Virus record (IMG/VR): IMGVR_UViG_3300048925_000659 | Span: 1-29,481 of that record | From: a virus | Reading direction: 5' to 3' (one strand) | Length of the DNA stretch: 29,481 nucleotides | Shown here: in pieces, positions 2,242 to 9,102 of the stretch | Position numbering within the stretch: position 1 is the first letter of the stretch | How the letters are laid out: the number at the start of each line of letters is the position of its first letter | Notes under the pieces: model-generated | The model's database searches: none | What the model was told of the DNA's origin: nothing | What the model saw: the letters and a program-made list of their open reading frames with translations, nothing else | Translations under genes and position numbers: made by a program

Positions 2242-2295
2242 GTGTTTGGCTGATATCCGCAGAACATAAGCCCGACACGCTGGGCGTGGACGTTT

Positions 2296-2330
2296 CGCAC
2301 GCGCGTGCGCGCGCGTGGTAATCTCCTCAC
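2296..2330 (+). promoter_or_regulatory. Candidate promoter with alternating purine-pyrimidine tract
   Basis: Bases 2296-2317 alternate pyrimidine and purine without a break, and contain the perfect 14-bp palindrome 2296-2309. Directly after comes TGG-TAATCT, an extended -10-like element (TAATCT at 2319-2324). A start six to seven bases later would fall at about 2331, exactly where the first hairpin of the structured region begins. No convincing -35 box is seen at normal spacing. Promoter assignment is inference from position and the -10 match. Confidence 0.35.
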
Positions 2331-2649
2331 ATCCCGGTGAGCTATGCCTAGAGGCAGGTTGACCGGGATTTGTGCTTCCCGGAGTTGGTGCTCTTCGCTG
2401 GGAACTGCCCGCCGACCGCGCGACCTCAACGCTCGCGGCTTCACGCCTTCGTCGCTTGACGGTTTCGGCGGGCACCATTCTTCCCCGTTGGTCGCTTAGC
2501 AGGCGGCGTGTGCGGGTCGAAGGAGACCACCGCGCGGGGTGGTCGTCCATGCCGGTACGGTGCGCGTACTGGCCGTGGTGGAGCGTGCAGAGTCTGGGTC
2601 TTTCCCGTCTGCATGCTCCACCACACCCGGGGTTGTCGAAGGAGACGCC
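2331..2649 (+). ncRNA. Putative structured non-coding RNA or structured leader; possible cos region
   Basis: This gene-free stretch folds into successive stems. Arms: 2331-2338/2362-2369 (8 bp) with inner TGCC/GGCA (2345-2348/2353-2356); 2376-2380/2400-2404; 2406-2415/2465-2474 (10 bp, perfect), enclosing 2416-2420/2434-2438 and 2450-2453/2458-2461; 2522-2531/2538-2548 (10 bp, one bulge); 2551-2559/2565-2573 (9 bp, one G-T); 2575-2590/2609-2624 (16 bp, one G-T). The G-T pairs are tolerated in RNA but would be mismatches in a DNA cruciform, which favours RNA. The 12-mer GTCGAAGGAGAC occurs at 2516-2527 and 2635-2646; the second copy is the ribosome site of the 2650 gene. No known RNA family is recognised. 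Position between accessory genes and the terminase side is also where a cos site would be expected. Confidence 0.5.
2516..2646 (+). repeat. Pair of 12-bp direct repeats containing a ribosome site
   Basis: GTCGAAGGAGAC is present at 2516-2527 and again at 2635-2646. The downstream copy is placed correctly to act as the ribosome site for ATG 2650. The upstream copy has no start codon at suitable distance and instead overlaps the base of the hairpin at 2522-2548. The repeat brackets three strong hairpins. It may be a duplication, or an alternative pairing partner controlling access to the ribosome site. Confidence 0.5.
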
Positions 2650-2820
2650 ATGGCTTGGGGCATCACGCAGAGCGTCACCAACGACGCCGCCCTCGACCAC
2701 ATCAGTGGGCTGCACCACAACCGGGACGACGCGCTCGACCACCTCGCGGACTTCATGATCAAGCACCCCGAGCACGACACGGACCCTGATCTCACTCTCG
2801 CACGAATCGCACTCCAATGA
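2650..2820 (+). CDS. Small acidic His/Asp-rich phage protein
   Basis: A 56-residue protein starting MAWGITQSVT, acidic and histidine-rich (DHISGLHHNRDDALDHLADF). The start at 2650 is set by AAGGAG at 2639-2644. Longer upstream openings in this and other frames run through the hairpin region and have non-coding composition. The stop overlaps the ATG of the following gene. Family unknown; first gene of the run leading to the terminase. Confidence 0.65.
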   Translation: MAWGITQSVTNDAALDHISGLHHNRDDALDHLADFMIKHPEHDTDPDLTLARIALQ

Positions 2821-2933
2821 CCCGCGCACTCTTCACGTTCGCCGGCATGACGGCGGGCGTCCTACTCGTCGTGACCGTTCAGCACTCGTGGCGCCGGGTC
2901 ATCGCTGGCCTTCTGAGCAGAGGGGATGCGTGA
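2817..2933 (+). CDS. 38-residue single-span membrane peptide
   Basis: Starts MTRALFTFAG and contains one hydrophobic segment at about residues 5-20, followed by a basic stretch (SWRR), giving a predicted N-out/C-in or signal-anchor topology. ATG overlaps the preceding stop (ATGA), and its own TGA overlaps the next ATG (TGATG). Small membrane proteins of this kind are common at the left end of actinophage genomes; function unknown. Confidence 0.55.
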   Translation: MTRALFTFAGMTAGVLLVVTVQHSWRRVIAGLLSRGDA

Positions 2934-3076
2934 TGAGCGAGGGCATCGTGATCCTGCTGCTGACCGGAGCGCTCACGCCCGTGATCGCAGCGTGCGGCCG
3001 AGGCGAGCTCCCGAAGGGCCCGTCATGGTTCGAGATCAGCCACGACACGAACCGGGCAGCGAGGCGGCGCAGATGA
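2933..3076 (+). CDS. Small membrane protein with a lipobox-like site
   Basis: A 47-residue protein, MSEGIVILLLTGALTPVIAA then C21. The N-terminal 20 residues are hydrophobic and end in V-I-A-A-C, which fits the loose lipobox consensus, but there are no N-terminal positive charges, so a plain transmembrane anchor is equally likely. The C-terminus is basic (AARRRR). AGAGGGGA upstream supports the ATG at 2933; the stop overlaps the next ATG. Function unknown. Confidence 0.5.
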   Translation: MSEGIVILLLTGALTPVIAACGRGELPKGPSWFEISHDTNRAARRRR

Positions 3077-3204
3077 GCAACAGCAAGCTCGACGCCGTCT
3101 TCCACCCGAAGACGTACGTGTGTGACTACTGCGGTGCTGAGTGGCGTTCCCCGATCTCCGCGGCTATGTGTTGCGACGCGGTCAGCATGGACGCGGACTC
3201 GTGA
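3073..3204 (+). CDS. Small zinc-ribbon-like protein
   Basis: A 43-residue protein with C-D-Y-C at residues 17-20 and a second pair C-C near residues 33-34, a spacing compatible with a small zinc-binding fold. ATG overlaps the upstream stop, and the TGA overlaps the GTG of the HNH gene. Likely nucleic-acid- or protein-binding by analogy with other short phage zinc ribbons; this is inference only. Confidence 0.55.
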   Translation: MSNSKLDAVFHPKTYVCDYCGAEWRSPISAAMCCDAVSMDADS

Positions 3205-3503
3205 GTAACCGCAGCATCCGTGACGGCAAGGGGCACCGCGCATATCGGCGCATGCAGTCCGCGTTGAAGCGCCGCACCGCCCGAGAGAAACTGCCCTGCG
3301 GGTACGGCTCCACGAACGGCTGGGGATGCGGTAACCAGATCGACACGACACTCCCCGCCGGTCATCGCATGAGCTTCACCGCGGACCATGATGACGCCCT
3401 CGACAACGGAGGACGTCTCCTCGGACATCTCGTCCCCATGCACTTGTCGTGTAACAGCCGCAAGAGCAACCACGCCGCCGCCGAGATCTGGGCTGCGACG
3501 TGA
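3201..3503 (+). CDS. HNH endonuclease
   Basis: A 100-residue protein starting at GTG 3201, overlapping the previous stop. It has the arrangement of phage HNH nucleases: a Cys pair in PCGYGSTNGWGCGNQ, the first H-D of the active site in TADHDDALDNGG, and the third element in HLVPMHLSCNSRKSN with CxxxK/N spacing. Small HNH proteins beside terminase genes are established partners in packaging of HK97-like phages, where they assist cos cleavage by the large terminase. Its place about 1 kb before the terminase genes fits that role. A free-standing homing endonuclease is the alternative, but tight coupling to neighbours argues against it. Confidence 0.8.
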   Translation: MSNRSIRDGKGHRAYRRMQSALKRRTAREKLPCGYGSTNGWGCGNQIDTTLPAGHRMSFTADHDDALDNGGRLLGHLVPMHLSCNSRKSNHAAAEIWAAT

Positions 3504-3844: not shown

Positions 3845-4044
3845 ATGACCGTTGTCATCGGGCAGTTGCCACACGCGTACTCATCGCGACCGGCGACGCC
3901 GACCCCGTGGAGGTGGGCACCATAACGAGCGACCTGCGATCCACAGGGACCGGAGCGAACGTTCAGGTCAGCATGCGCTCATGGCGCCGCAGCCTCGCGC
4001 TCGGCTTCCTCCGCATGGCGTGGGCCACCTGGACCAGCCGATGA
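3845..4044 (+). pseudogene. Small gene broken by an apparent one-base deletion
   Basis: ATG 3845 has an excellent GGAGGG site seven bases upstream, but its frame stops after 26 codons (TAA 3923-3925). The adjacent frame from about 3862 to TGA 4042-4044 reads as good coding sequence (ATRVLIATGDADPVEVGTIT, then a basic, aromatic C-terminus) and has no start with a ribosome site. Joining MTVVI to that frame near 3859-3862 restores a protein of about 65 residues. This matches loss of one base. The stop of the second frame overlaps the ATG of the next gene, as expected of the intact gene. Function unknown. Confidence 0.5.
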
Positions 4045-4154
4045 CCCCGTGGGATCTCATCGTATGGGCCGGGGCAGTGGCAGCAGCAGTCATCATCATC
4101 GGCTTCGGCGCGGCACTCGCATACGGACTCATCCGAGCCGCACGGCAACTCTGA
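4041..4154 (+). CDS. 37-residue membrane peptide
   Basis: Starts MTPWDLIVWAGAVAAAVIII and is almost entirely one transmembrane segment (about residues 5-30), with a basic tail. The ATG overlaps the stop of the preceding (broken) frame. Its end lies a few bases before a strong hairpin. Unknown function; another of the small membrane proteins preceding the terminase. Confidence 0.5.
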   Translation: MTPWDLIVWAGAVAAAVIIIGFGAALAYGLIRAARQL

Positions 4155-4193: not shown

Positions 4194-4275
4194 CCATGCC
4201 CACCTCCCGCGCGTGCCTGGCAGTTCTCTCCGCGGGTGAATCGGACGTTGTGGGGGATTTGAGGGGGTGGGGGAT

Positions 4276-4668
4276 ATGGGACGCCCTAAGGCCCCCTGCG
4301 GCACTGATGCCGCATACCGTCGGCACCTCCGGAACGGTGAGGAAGTCGATGCTGAGTGTCGTCGTGCGCATCGTGAGAAGCAGCGTGAGGCTCGGCGATC
4401 GCCAGCATCATCGGCGGGGGTGGCGGACGAGCCGCCGATCCGGGATACGGGTGGCGATCAGGATGATCTGAAACTCATCGTCGACACACTGCGGACTGTG
4501 TTCAAGAAGGTCGCGATGGAGGACCCCGTGAAGGTGGCTCCGATCGCGCGCGAGTTCCGTTCCGCTGTGGAGGCGGCTCGGGGACCGCAGGAGCAGCCGA
4601 AGGAGTTGAGCCTTGCCGACCAACTCGCCGCCGCTCGAGCTGCTCGGGCTGCAAGAGCCGCGGGTTAG
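4276..4668 (+). CDS. Terminase small subunit
   Basis: A 130-residue protein, MGRPKAPCGTDAAYRRHLRN at the N-terminus; the C-G-T-x(4)-Y-x-R-H-L-R-x-G-E opening followed by CRRAHR is typical of actinophage small terminases with an N-terminal DNA-binding helix cluster. The middle is acidic, the end an Ala/Arg-rich helix. ATG 4276 is preferred over GTG 4267 because MGRPK begins the conserved part and G-rich ribosome-site-like sequence precedes it. It overlaps the large terminase gene by 56 bases. Role: binds the packaging site and loads the large subunit. Identity rests on position plus the N-terminal pattern. Confidence 0.75.
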   Translation: MGRPKAPCGTDAAYRRHLRNGEEVDAECRRAHREKQREARRSPASSAGVADEPPIRDTGGDQDDLKLIVDTLRTVFKKVAMEDPVKVAPIAREFRSAVEAARGPQEQPKELSLADQLAAARAARAARAAG

Positions 4669-6205
4669 GACACTCCCGCTCAGTCGAGTGGACACGCTGG
4701 TCGATGACGTTCTCGACATCTGCGACCTGGCGAATGTCAGCTGCGATCCGTGGCAGGAGGGTGGGCTCGACGCGATCGCGTCGATCGACTCCGAGGGGCA
4801 GTGGGCGGCGACGGAGTTCGGCGTGCTGGTATCTCGCCAGCAGGGTAAGGGCAACATTCTGCTGCCCTACGAGCTCGCTCATCTGTACCTGTGGCCTCGG
4901 GCTGATGGTGCACCGAAGCTGATAGGACACACGGCGCATGAGGGTGCGACGGCGCGTGAGGCGTTCCGCCGCGCTCGTCGAACGATCCTTGCGTCCCCGA
5001 TTCTCCGCGCCGAGCTGGTCGGCGGGGGCAAGCAGACCGCGCAGGGCGTCACCGGCATCTCGACCGGGAATGGCAACTGGGCGATCGAACTCAAGAACGG
5101 CAACCGGCTGGTGTTCTTCACCCGCACCGGTTCGGCCGGTGTTGGCATCTCGTTCGACGTGCTGATCGTCGATGAAGCGCAGCATTCACCGCTGAGCATT
5201 CTCGAGGCGCTGCTGCCGGCGACGGACGCGAGCCCGAACAAGCAGGTACTGTTCACCGGCACTGTGCCGAAGGAAGACCAGGACGGCGAATACTTCGAGG
5301 GACTGCGTGATCGCGGACGCAAGGGCGGGTTCGAGCGCACAGGCTGGATCGAGCACACTCCGATCGGTTCAGATGATCCGGACACGGCAGAGCGGATAGA
5401 CCTCGGCAATCCGCAAGTGTGGCGTCAGGGAAACCCTGGACTTGGGATCCGCCTCGCATGGAAGACCGTCGAGGACGACTGGGAACGGATGGGGCAGACG
5501 AACCCGGAAGCGTTCGCTCGCCAACGGCTTTCGATCTGGCCGAGTCGCCGTGCCGTCGTCGCCGAGTCGCTCTCCGACATCGACATGGACGCGTGGAACC
5601 ACCAAGCAGACGATGACGCGGCCGTCGTCGGAGACGGCGTGGTGCTGTCACTCGCTCTCGGTCGTGGTGGTCAGTTCGCGACCATCTGCAAGGCTGTCCG
5701 GTTCGACTCCGACTCGATCGCGGTTGAGCATCACATGACCGAGGCCGGCACCCGTTGGGTGGCGGGTGATCTGAAGGCGCTGAAGGAAGAGCTCGGGAAC
5801 GCGTTGGTCGTGCTGGACGCGAAGAACGCTGCTCCGGTGATTTCGTCACTCGAGGCCGCGGGGGTCAAGTACCTGTCGATGAACATCGACGAACTCGCTG
5901 CGTCGCATGCGCTGTTCATCGAGCACGTGAACGCGGGGATGGTGCCGCACCGTCCGCAGGAGGAAGTGACGAAGTCGTTGCAGTTCGCGACGACTCGGAA
6001 CGTCGGCCGCGCGGGGATGACGTGGGAGCAGTCGGACCCGAAGAAGCCCGTGACCATGGCGCTGGGTGTGACGTGGGCGCACTGGGGTGTCTTGAAGTCT
6101 GAGGCGACGCCGAAAAAGGTCATTGTCCCGCCGCCTCCGCCGCGTCAGTTCGCGCGTGAAAGCAGCAGCTCCGAGGGTCCGAACATTCGCACCATCCAGT
6201 TCTGA
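4613..6205 (+). CDS. Terminase large subunit
   Basis: A 530-residue packaging ATPase/nuclease starting at TTG 4613 with AAGGAG seven bases upstream, inside the 3' end of the small subunit gene. Walker A-like SRQQGKG at residues 74-80, Walker B VLIVDEAQ at 183-190, and a coupling-motif-like LFTGTVP at about 224-230 identify the ATPase half. The C-terminal half has the layout of the RNase H-like nuclease: strand VVLSLALGRGGQFAT, strand LVVLDAKNAAPV, and the terminal helix VTMALGVTWAHWG. Of the usual acidic triad only the middle Asp (VVLD) is plain; the first and third positions appear substituted (see findings). Length is normal for the HK97/lambdoid-type family. It supplies force for genome packaging at the portal. 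Confidence 0.93.
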   Translation: MPTNSPPLELLGLQEPRVRTLPLSRVDTLVDDVLDICDLANVSCDPWQEGGLDAIASIDSEGQWAATEFGVLVSRQQGKGNILLPYELAHLYLWPRADGAPKLIGHTAHEGATAREAFRRARRTILASPILRAELVGGGKQTAQGVTGISTGNGNWAIELKNGNRLVFFTRTGSAGVGISFDVLIVDEAQHSPLSILEALLPATDASPNKQVLFTGTVPKEDQDGEYFEGLRDRGRKGGFERTGWIEHTPIGSDDPDTAERIDLGNPQVWRQGNPGLGIRLAWKTVEDDWERMGQTNPEAFARQRLSIWPSRRAVVAESLSDIDMDAWNHQADDDAAVVGDGVVLSLALGRGGQFATICKAVRFDSDSIAVEHHMTEAGTRWVAGDLKALKEELGNALVVLDAKNAAPVISSLEAAGVKYLSMNIDELAASHALFIEHVNAGMVPHRPQEEVTKSLQFATTRNVGRAGMTWEQSDPKKPVTMALGVTWAHWGVLKSEATPKKVIVPPPPPRQFARESSSSEGPNIRTIQF

Positions 6206-7487: not shown

Positions 7488-8740
7488 ATCAGCTCGCGAA
7501 GAGCCCGCATCGGTTCTGGGGTGAGAAGCCGCTGCCGAAGTCGAAGGCTGAGTTCTTCGACGCGGTGACGATGCCCGCCCCGGTAGGAGAGGGAACGGTC
7601 GCCACGATCCGCATGTACGGGCCGATCGACTCGTGGGGTGGCTTCTGGGGCATCTCCACGAAGGACGTCGGGCAGGTGCTCGACGCGCTGCCGGATTCGG
7701 TATCGCAGATCATCCTGCGGATCAACTCGCCCGGTGGCGAGGTGTTCGAGGGTGTCTCGATCCTGAACATGCTCCGCGCGCATAAGGCGAAGGTCACCGC
7801 AGTCGTGGATGGTCTCGCCGCCTCCGCGGCGTCGGTGATCGTCGCCGGGTGTGACGAGGCGGTCATGTCTCCCGCAACGCAGATGATGATCCACTCTCCG
7901 TGGACGTTCACGCTCGGCAACGCTGCTGAACTCCGCAAGGACGCCGACCGGCTCGACGGGATCGAAGCGTCCCTGATCGAGATCTACCAGGCGAAGGCCG
8001 GCGACAAGGACTGGCCCGCTCTGCTCGCTGAGGAGACGTGGTACACCGCGCCTCAGGCCGTGGAGGCCGGGCTCGCTGACCGTGTCGACGTGGTCCCCGA
8101 CGCGGGAGATGCGGAGACCGTCGGCGAGGAAGAGCCCGTGATCGTCGTCGTACCCCTCGAGGGCGAAGACGAGGACTCAGCGCGCATCACCCAGATCGCG
8201 GCGTTCAGCCGCGCACACAAGCTCCCGAGCTCGTCCGAGCCGGGTGACCCCAACCAGAAGGAGGAGCTCACCGTGAGCGACACCATCAAGGCTGGTCTCC
8301 GCGAGCGGCTCGGCGTGACCGATGCCGATGCTTCGGACGAGACGCTGCTCGCAGCGCTCGACGAGGCGCTCAACGAGCAGGCAGAACCCACCGACGCGCC
8401 GGCTGCTCTGCCGGAGGGCGCGATCATCGTCGATAAGGCCGCGTACGAGGAGACGAAGCGCAAGGCCGAGGCCGGTCAGAAGGCCATGGACGCGATCGAC
8501 AAGAAGCGCCGCGACGACATCATCATCGACGCGCTCAAGGCCGGACGCATCGCGTCCGAGTCGAAGGACACGTGGCGCACGCAGCTCGACAAGGACGAGG
8601 ACGGGATCACGAAGATCCTCGCATCCCTTCCCGCCAGCGGAGCGGTCCCGGTCACCGAGATCGGACACTCCGACACCCTGAACGGTTCCGACGAGGCGCT
8701 GTACTCGTCGGCGTTCCCGACCGAGGAGGTGGCTCGATGA
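7484..8740 (+). CDS. Capsid maturation protease (ClpP/S14-like) with C-terminal scaffold domain
   Basis: A 418-residue protein. Residues about 38-205 form a ClpP-like serine peptidase domain: INSPGGEVFEG (oxyanion region), catalytic Ser114 in GLAASAASVI, catalytic His137 in MMIHSPW; the third residue is less clear, with acidic EE at about 183-184 before TWYTAPQAVEAGLADRV. After an acidic linker (about 205-260) comes a Glu/Lys-rich helical region (about 265-418) typical of a scaffold. The protease cleaves scaffold and capsid subunits in the prohead. A strong internal start lies at the junction (separate entry). ATG 7484 overlaps the portal stop; its end overlaps the decoration gene. Confidence 0.9.
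   Translation: MNQLAKSPHRFWGEKPLPKSKAEFFDAVTMPAPVGEGTVATIRMYGPIDSWGGFWGISTKDVGQVLDALPDSVSQIILRINSPGGEVFEGVSILNMLRAHKAKVTAVVDGLAASAASVIVAGCDEAVMSPATQMMIHSPWTFTLGNAAELRKDADRLDGIEASLIEIYQAKAGDKDWPALLAEETWYTAPQAVEAGLADRVDVVPDAGDAETVGEEEPVIVVVPLEGEDEDSARITQIAAFSRAHKLPSSSEPGDPNQKEELTVSDTIKAGLRERLGVTDADASDETLLAALDEALNEQAEPTDAPAALPEGAIIVDKAAYEETKRKAEAGQKAMDAIDKKRRDDIIIDALKAGRIASESKDTWRTQLDKDEDGITKILASLPASGAVPVTEIGHSDTLNGSDEALYSSAFPTEEVAR
8273..8740 (+). CDS. Nested scaffold protein from an internal in-frame start
   Basis: Within the protease gene, AAGGAGGAG (8258-8266) stands six bases before an in-frame GTG at 8273, exactly where the peptidase domain and acidic linker end. The product would be 155 residues, VSDTIKAGLRERLGV at its start, predominantly helical and charged, as expected of a free scaffold. 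The arrangement is the same in principle as lambda C/Nu3, where scaffold is made in excess from an in-frame start inside the protease gene. Expression is inferred from the ribosome site only. Confidence 0.6.
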   Translation: MSDTIKAGLRERLGVTDADASDETLLAALDEALNEQAEPTDAPAALPEGAIIVDKAAYEETKRKAEAGQKAMDAIDKKRRDDIIIDALKAGRIASESKDTWRTQLDKDEDGITKILASLPASGAVPVTEIGHSDTLNGSDEALYSSAFPTEEVAR

Positions 8741-9102
8741 GCGACTACACCCCCCGCCACACGCCCGGAACGGCCGTCACCTTCTCCGCTTCAGCGGACG
8801 TGACCGGTGGCCGTCTCGTGCTCGCGTCCGGCGCGAAGACCGTGGCTCCAGCCACGCTCGACGCGGCGAACGTGGTCGGTGTCGCAGGCTTCGACGTGAA
8901 GTCCGGCGATCCCGTCACAGTCTTCCCCCGCCCCACCGGAGTGCACGCTCTCGTCGCGGGCGGCGCCATCGCTGCCGGCGCGAAGGTCGTCGCCGGAGCG
9001 GCTGGGAAGGTCGTCACCATCGGATCGAACACGAACCCCATCGGGATCGCGCTCGAAGCCGCCGCCGCCGACCTCGACGTCATTGACGTCCTGTTCATCT
9101 GA
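8737..9102 (+). CDS. Capsid decoration protein (DUF2190-like)
   Basis: A 121-residue, Ala/Gly/Val-rich beta protein. TPGTAVTFSASADVTGGRLV followed by VVGVAGFDVKSGDPVTVF and an Ala/Gly-rich AGAKVVAGAAGKVV is the usual pattern of DUF2190 proteins encoded between protease and major capsid genes. Such proteins bind the outside of the capsid and stabilise it. ATG overlaps the protease stop, with GAGGAGG upstream; the longer open frame upstream belongs to the protease region. Confidence 0.75.
   Translation: MSDYTPRHTPGTAVTFSASADVTGGRLVLASGAKTVAPATLDAANVVGVAGFDVKSGDPVTVFPRPTGVHALVAGGAIAAGAKVVAGAAGKVVTIGSNTNPIGIALEAAAADLDVIDVLFI

Follow-up and report, generated by a model that had tools for sequence, protein, structure and literature searches.

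A predicted family of modular structured RNAs upstream of the packaging genes in Microbacterium phages

Introduction

Prophages and phages encode the structured noncoding RNAs GOLLD and ROOL, which are of unknown function and often lie near tRNA genes (PMC12286853); in GOLLD, one part is conserved and another variable (PMC12286853). The element described here is likewise phage-encoded, and tRNAs are found at or beside its place in other phages, with none beside the element analyzed here. At ∼310 nt, compared with 600 to 800 nt or more, it is half their size or less, it shares no sequence or model match with them, and its modules are exchanged while its position ahead of the packaging genes is fixed.

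Other described systems resemble the locus in part. The lambda PR′/tR′/6S RNA system and HK022 put provide structured leader RNAs, with a late promoter and then a terminator-like hairpin. Here too a predicted promoter would precede late genes with a terminator-like hairpin close behind, but the body of the element comes after the hairpin and is optional, and no antiterminator was identified. Like the phi29 pRNA, the element would be a phage RNA encoded on the side of the packaging genes and folded around a multi-way junction; however, it has no tie to a given portal or terminase and no Rfam match. HEARO and omega RNAs are structured RNAs upstream of an HNH gene, whereas the HNH protein encoded here is a single-domain packaging protein of ∼100 aa, not IscB or IsrB, and again there is no Rfam match. 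Finally, the cos sites of phages with HNH and terminase genes, such as SuMoo and Caron, likewise lie near these genes, but cos follows the HNH gene and the element precedes it.

Comparison with the Rfam 15 covariance models gave no match in the window at the gathering threshold and only chance (eukaryotic) matches at E up to 5, and the relatives yielded only a tRNA, in agreement with the first-pass annotation, which had recognized no known RNA family. No report of this RNA was found within a limited set of papers. As judged from sequence comparison, the element belongs to a new, predicted family of modular structured RNAs in Microbacterium phages.

Results

Architecture of the Element

The window, the whole 29,481-nt stretch that was analyzed (IMG/VR record IMGVR_UViG_3300048925_000659), contains seven successive stems on the plus strand between positions 2328 and 2624. 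The element and its surroundings comprise:

2296 to 2315, no strand assigned: CG-rich palindrome of the promoter region (inverted repeat I9), probably upstream of the transcript
2316 to 2324, plus strand: extended −10, TGGTAATCT, fitting TGnTAnnCT
2328 to 2374, plus strand: M1, the first hairpin, terminator-like (CATCCCGGT / ACCGGGAT...), z −4.3
2376 to 2404, plus strand: M2 hairpin, stem 2376-2382/2398-2404, 7 bp with one G-T, invariant 15-nt loop AGTTGGTGCTCTTCG
2406 to 2474, plus strand: M3 three-way junction, outer stem P1 2406-2415/2465-2474, 10 bp
2416-2420/2434-2438 and 2450-2453/2458-2461, plus strand: inner hairpins of M3, enclosed by P1
2479 to 2516, plus strand: TCTTCC linker and P4 hairpin (2484-2516), P4 z −2.0
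2525 to 2544, plus strand: P5 hairpin GACCACC/GGTGGTC, 2525-2531/2538-2544, 7 bp, z −3.0
2551 to 2573, plus strand: P6 hairpin, 2551-2559/2565-2573, 9 bp, z −2.7
2575 to 2624, plus strand: P7 long terminal hairpin, 2575-2591/2608-2624, 17 bp with one G-T, plus an upper stem, z −9.1
2650 to 2820, plus strand: small gene, 56 aa (MAWGITQSVT...), family unknown
3203 to 3503 (ORF 3141-3503), plus strand: HNH endonuclease of the packaging module, PHROG 338 HNH, E 5e-12
4267 to 4668, preceding TerL: gene in the small-terminase position, named by position
4613 to 6205, plus strand: terminase large subunit (TerL), PHROG 9, E 3e-45

Folding of the whole 354 nt gave z scores of −4.48 on the plus strand and −5.59 on the minus strand, with none of 100 shuffles as good on either. 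Because both strands fold beyond all shuffles, fold energy alone cannot tell the strand. Significance also varies by stem; M2 has a z score of only −0.94 and draws its support from covariation. The region contains no conserved ORF and its codon-position GC signal is flat. Thus the multi-stem element without a gene that the first-pass annotation had described is real (seven stems, whole-region z −4.5), as is its three-way junction at 2406-2474, although the right-hand inner hairpin of the latter is weak. An exact 12-base repeat, GTCGAAGGAGAC, at 2516-2527 and 2635-2646, 119 bases apart, flanks P5-P7, which could represent a block that was inserted or exchanged.

The CG-rich stem 2298-2305/2310-2317, previously taken as the first 8-bp stem of the element, overlaps the −10 and precedes the likely start. 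It probably represents a DNA palindrome belonging to the promoter, outside the RNA. In L113/L117, a CG palindrome occupies the place equivalent to 2296-2315 of the window (CGCGCGCATGCGCGCG), and the counterpart of the window −10 in L113 is TGTTACTCT. About 25 relatives carry TGnTAnGCT, often followed by a small palindrome (e.g., GTGCTTGCAC, CTGCCTTGCAG, GTGCGTGCAC), ahead of an M1-type hairpin. A sigma-70 consensus scan of the window alone found no promoter, and no −35 is recognizable. The −10-like element proposed earlier is supported by conservation among the relatives (TGnTAnnCT) but not by the consensus scan, and comparison points to a predicted promoter from which transcription in the window would be expected to start near 2331. 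L110 has TTGACA-N17-TAGTCT upstream.

M1 has a minimum free energy of −25.2 for 2322-2372 (z −4.3). It is more stable on the plus than on the minus strand (−26.4 versus −19.1), as are 22 of the 23 M1 hairpins. In the records of two T7-like phages, features annotated "terminator" match M1 of L033, whose tail is similar to that of a hairpin located after a gene in L048; a simple scan of the window for a consensus terminator returned none. M1 is a putative late attenuator. Promoter and M1 are retained without the RNA body upstream of the HNH gene in L002 (4154), L014 (3949), and L021 (3980), where they apparently constitute a general late promoter of these phages, with a palindrome at the expected start. 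By reading, the remnant in L014 resembles both ends of the type-B core (described below) joined together; as L014 lacks the body, the body is dispensable at least there.

Relatives, Body Types, and Distribution

By way of the large terminase, 26 related phage loci were collected from IMG/VR. Among them, DNA similarity in the element is almost nil except for the hairpin with loop AGTTGGTGCTCTTCG, which also occurs in L016/L017, L046, L047, L058, L059, L107, and L113 and is flanked by CCCTCGG/CCGAGGG in L016/L017 versus TTCCCGG/CTGGGAA in the window. Base pairing between this loop and the Shine-Dalgarno region was weighed but rejected, since by eye it is not kept in the relatives. A motif scan led to L028/L047 and L031/L046, in which the three-way junction is also present with the same loops and different stems. 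L003, L012, and L013 gave the first reading of a second body type (B), in which an outer stem encloses the core CCACACGCTCACATCCC...GAGCGGTGATGGG; it was later found widely.

The TCTTCC linker and P4 are common to the window, L113, L033, L036, and L126, and in these five loci the order M3-P4-P5-P6-P7 is constant despite sequence change. At the place of P5, the four relatives have a hairpin of other sequence (GGTCGC/GCGACC or GCGGCC); in the MAFFT alignment the window is shifted there. At the place of P7 they have a long hairpin of different sequence. In L110/L123 and L129/L133 the module order differs, with M1, an M2-like hairpin, a P4-like stretch, and a minimal type-B core.

Covariance models were built for type B (R1), type W, to which the element of the window belongs (R2), and P4-P6 (R3). 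R1 matches 16 of 369 Microbacterium genomes; R2 matches two of these 16 and adds G034. All true chromosomal matches are in Microbacterium, one of them in the genome of an uncultured Microbacterium, and a search of 400 Microbacteriaceae genomes from across the family returned only two matches, both Microbacterium already known. The RNA is thus so far restricted to Microbacterium phages. The window virus infects soil bacteria (Microbacterium). A DNA search of cultured phages with the elements of the window, L012, L028, and L133 gave no true match. Pattern matches in L027, L030, L050, L053, L054, L055, L127, L128, L131, and L132 were judged to be chance (coding or with no model match), and the 15-base loop pattern with one mismatch was too loose to use, hitting 183 of 369 genomes with a similar result for the reversed control.

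Compensatory Changes and Strand

Stems of both body types vary in a way that preserves pairing. In three type W sequences, 7 of 26 pairs are changed on both sides with the loops nearly invariant; only 4 of 500 shuffles were as good and slid registers gave 0 to 2 pairs, the comparison resting on a type of which four sequences are known, three of them used to build the model. M2 shows compensatory change in three of seven pairs around an identical loop, and P1 of M3 in 4 of 10 pairs around a nearly invariant CCGCGCGACCTCAACGYTCGCGGCTT. In five sequences the pairing of P6 is 100%; four of its nine pairs show compensatory change, G-U pairs are many, and there is no A-C. The P4 outer stem has all-standard pairs in five of five sequences, its changes being G-U/G-C, and the few "other" cells of P4 are confined to two pairs.

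Across the 27 type B sequences, 95.4% of cells are paired. Compensatory changes affect 15 of 39 pairs (6.7 in shuffles, at most 7 in slid registers) and 48 cells (14.9 in shuffles, with 0 of 500 as good), counts that lean upward because of the fit of the alignment to the model and the kinship among the sequences. We judge the gap over the shuffles too large to arise from model fitting and kinship alone. Compensatory pairs thus exceed shuffles in both types W and B, which is the covariation among homologs by which the element was to be checked.

The standard-pair table for P4 and P6 (five sequences) contains 25 G-U cells and 0 A-C cells on the plus strand, upholding the earlier view that the G-T pairs of the stems fit RNA better than DNA; the strand evidence in type B is 27 versus 14. 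Collectively, the compensatory changes, the plus-strand G-U bias, and the stability of M1 indicate, at the level of sequence, a paired RNA read rightward.

The Element Is Exchanged Independently of the Packaging Genes

The closest relative, L117, matches window positions 2273-2940 at 8129-8822 with 77% identity over 701 aligned columns. Window positions 3120-3198 are also common to both, and nothing else within the first 9 kb. Downstream, the HNH protein of L117 belongs to another PHROG, and its TerL and portal have no detectable similarity to those of the window. The type-B core, likewise, stays constant while TerL identity to the window falls from 84% (L012) to 24 to 29% (L034, L118, L121, L122, and L124), and phages with ∼80% identical terminases carry other elements or none. 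Across these loci the element was neither coinherited with its terminase nor partnered with the portal and terminase of its own phage, being common to phages in which these are unrelated; its position, by comparison, is kept.

Three cultured Microbacterium phages were recovered by way of their tRNA-Trp. In two of these, SuMoo and Caron, the right end carries tRNA-Trp, tRNA-Asn, and HNH in this order up to the genome end, and TerS and TerL open the left end, so that the genome ends, with the deposited ends taken as physical ends, fall between HNH and TerS, ∼130 bases past the HNH gene. TerL of these phages shares 31 to 34% identity with its counterparts in L117, L123, and L133, and HNH ∼36% with those in L117 and L133. 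By analogy, cos of the window would be expected between 3503 and 4267; in such phages cos would follow the HNH gene and the RNA slot precede it.

Genes Next to the Element

The gene that follows the element varies. It is a small gene like that at 2650 in the window, L113, L110, L111, and L129; the HNH gene directly in L033, L035, L036, L037, L039, L041, L099, L105, and L106; and, by reading, a convergent gene in L003, L012, L098, L101, and L104. No constant downstream gene of the riboswitch kind was found, the element being followed by 2650-like genes, several HNH families, or a convergent gene. These varying and convergent neighbors exclude a leader specific to one gene and favor a self-contained RNA, with which the convergent gene directly behind the element in five phages also fits. 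A structured leader of the 2650 operon, suggested in the first-pass annotation, is accordingly possible only in part: the late transcript probably starts with the element, yet the next gene changes and is convergent in several phages.

Homologs of the 2650 gene occur in L113/L117 (81%), L110/L123 (46%), L111/L124 (56%), and, by reading, L129/L133. They were found only in RNA-carrying loci, whereas the RNA also occurs without the gene. The protein has no Pfam or PHROG match and no relatives in a scan of viral contigs. Another short reading frame may lie between the element and the 2650-like gene in L110, L111, and L129. The HNH gene of the window is conserved in 21 relatives. Across the phages, an HNH gene, where one was found downstream, lies 160 to 1,100 bases away on the same strand as the element. 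The only PHROG matches of the 4267-4668 gene are weak, to WhiB-like regulators. To the left of the element, the accessory genes include a Dam-type DNA adenine methyltransferase (606-1289). Small convergent genes stand between the RNA and the HNH gene at 3500-4000 in L003 and 680-1000 in L012, as well as in L098, L101, and L104; this interval is likely a site for accessory genes.

A Proposed Role and Its Alternatives

We propose that the element encodes a modular structured noncoding RNA of ∼310 nt (2331 to ∼2640), with rightward transcription from a promoter that closely precedes the packaging and structural genes. The RNA would start with the terminator-like M1, a possible attenuator, and continue through M2, the three-way junction, and P4-P7. 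It would function as RNA rather than as a DNA site, within a cassette that is swapped between phages whatever their packaging enzymes. Both the conserved loop AGTTGGTGCTCTTCG and the type-B core, which hardly varies, look like surfaces to which a partner from the host or the phage would bind, and the RNA would most likely act in trans, alone or as an RNA–protein particle, presumably late in infection. We give this whole account, a modular phage RNA acting in trans in late infection, about an even chance. Its phage noncoding RNA component had been one option of the first-pass annotation, and the compensatory changes, strand-specific G-U pairs, conserved −10, and lack of an Rfam family speak for it. 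More broadly, the element could typify a new mosaic class of phage RNA, composed of exchangeable stem modules heading the late genes, traded regardless of the packaging machine, placed in a slot shared with tRNAs, and acting late, either in trans on a factor of the host or the phage or as a leader that modifies the polymerase, a classification we offer tentatively and would put a little short of even.

The main rival to a self-contained RNA is a general late-operon leader that would act in cis, affecting either the polymerase or how stable its own transcript is, and let the packaging and structural operon be read, whether by processive antitermination like that of HK022 put or by attenuation at M1 as at the lambda late promoter. 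We consider this a credible but clearly less probable reading. Wherever this can be judged, the element stands ahead of the late genes at the same place and on the same strand, M1 stands terminator-like directly behind the promoter even without the body, and in phages with a convergent gene and strong hairpin behind the element, late transcription from this promoter would need read-through. Moreover, no conserved terminator was found at the end of the RNA among the relatives, so that the RNA may be no more than the 5′ portion of the late mRNA. However, the retention of promoter and M1 without a body in L002, L014, and L021 argues that the body is not needed for late transcription there. The body also lies behind M1, unlike put and nut sites, which precede the terminators they suppress, and two unrelated body types with permuted modules (L110 and L129) would be unusual for a polymerase-binding site.

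The remaining explanations fare worse. That the region is a set of separate items, M1 terminating the upstream genes beside unrelated small hairpins or decayed genes, would accord with the mosaic, permuted modules and with the lack of a fold signal for M2 alone, but the stems are kept together in constant order in the window, L113, L033, L036, and L126, and we find it very improbable. A DNA element, either cos/pac or terminase-binding repeats whose hairpins arise by chance or as cruciforms, would suit the packaging side, the adjoining HNH gene, and the partly invariant core; it is very improbable given the long-distance compensatory changes and plus-strand G-U bias, the same element beside unrelated terminases and different elements beside nearly identical ones, and the SuMoo and Caron ends between HNH and TerS. 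The cos option raised earlier is thus disfavored, these ends lying downstream of the HNH gene. An RNA of the packaging motor, also suggested at first, draws on position only. The phi29 pRNA sits on the portal, but here the portal changes while the RNA stays, and the element is decoupled from TerL, portal, and HNH, being shared across unrelated or very distant versions of all three and absent from relatives with ∼80% identical TerL; we accord this reading the slightest probability.

Natural exchange separates the packaging-adjacent element from the packaging reaction itself. RNAs of the GOLLD/ROOL type are structured and can be abundant; the present family is small, has clear modules with natural presence/absence pairs and swaps, and occurs in a culturable genus, making deletion, complementation, and pull-down practical.

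A Slot Shared with tRNA Genes

At the place of the element, L001 has a tRNA-Met gene (3991-4066) and L111 a tRNA-Trp gene (1301-1375), and no tRNA gene lies beside the element of the window. SuMoo and Caron carry their tRNA-Trp and tRNA-Asn at the equivalent place. tRNA genes (Met, Trp, and Asn) in the slot upstream of the HNH gene are seen in L137 (1856-2059) and L139 (1231-1629), and in Caron ∼250 structured bases lie between its two tRNAs.
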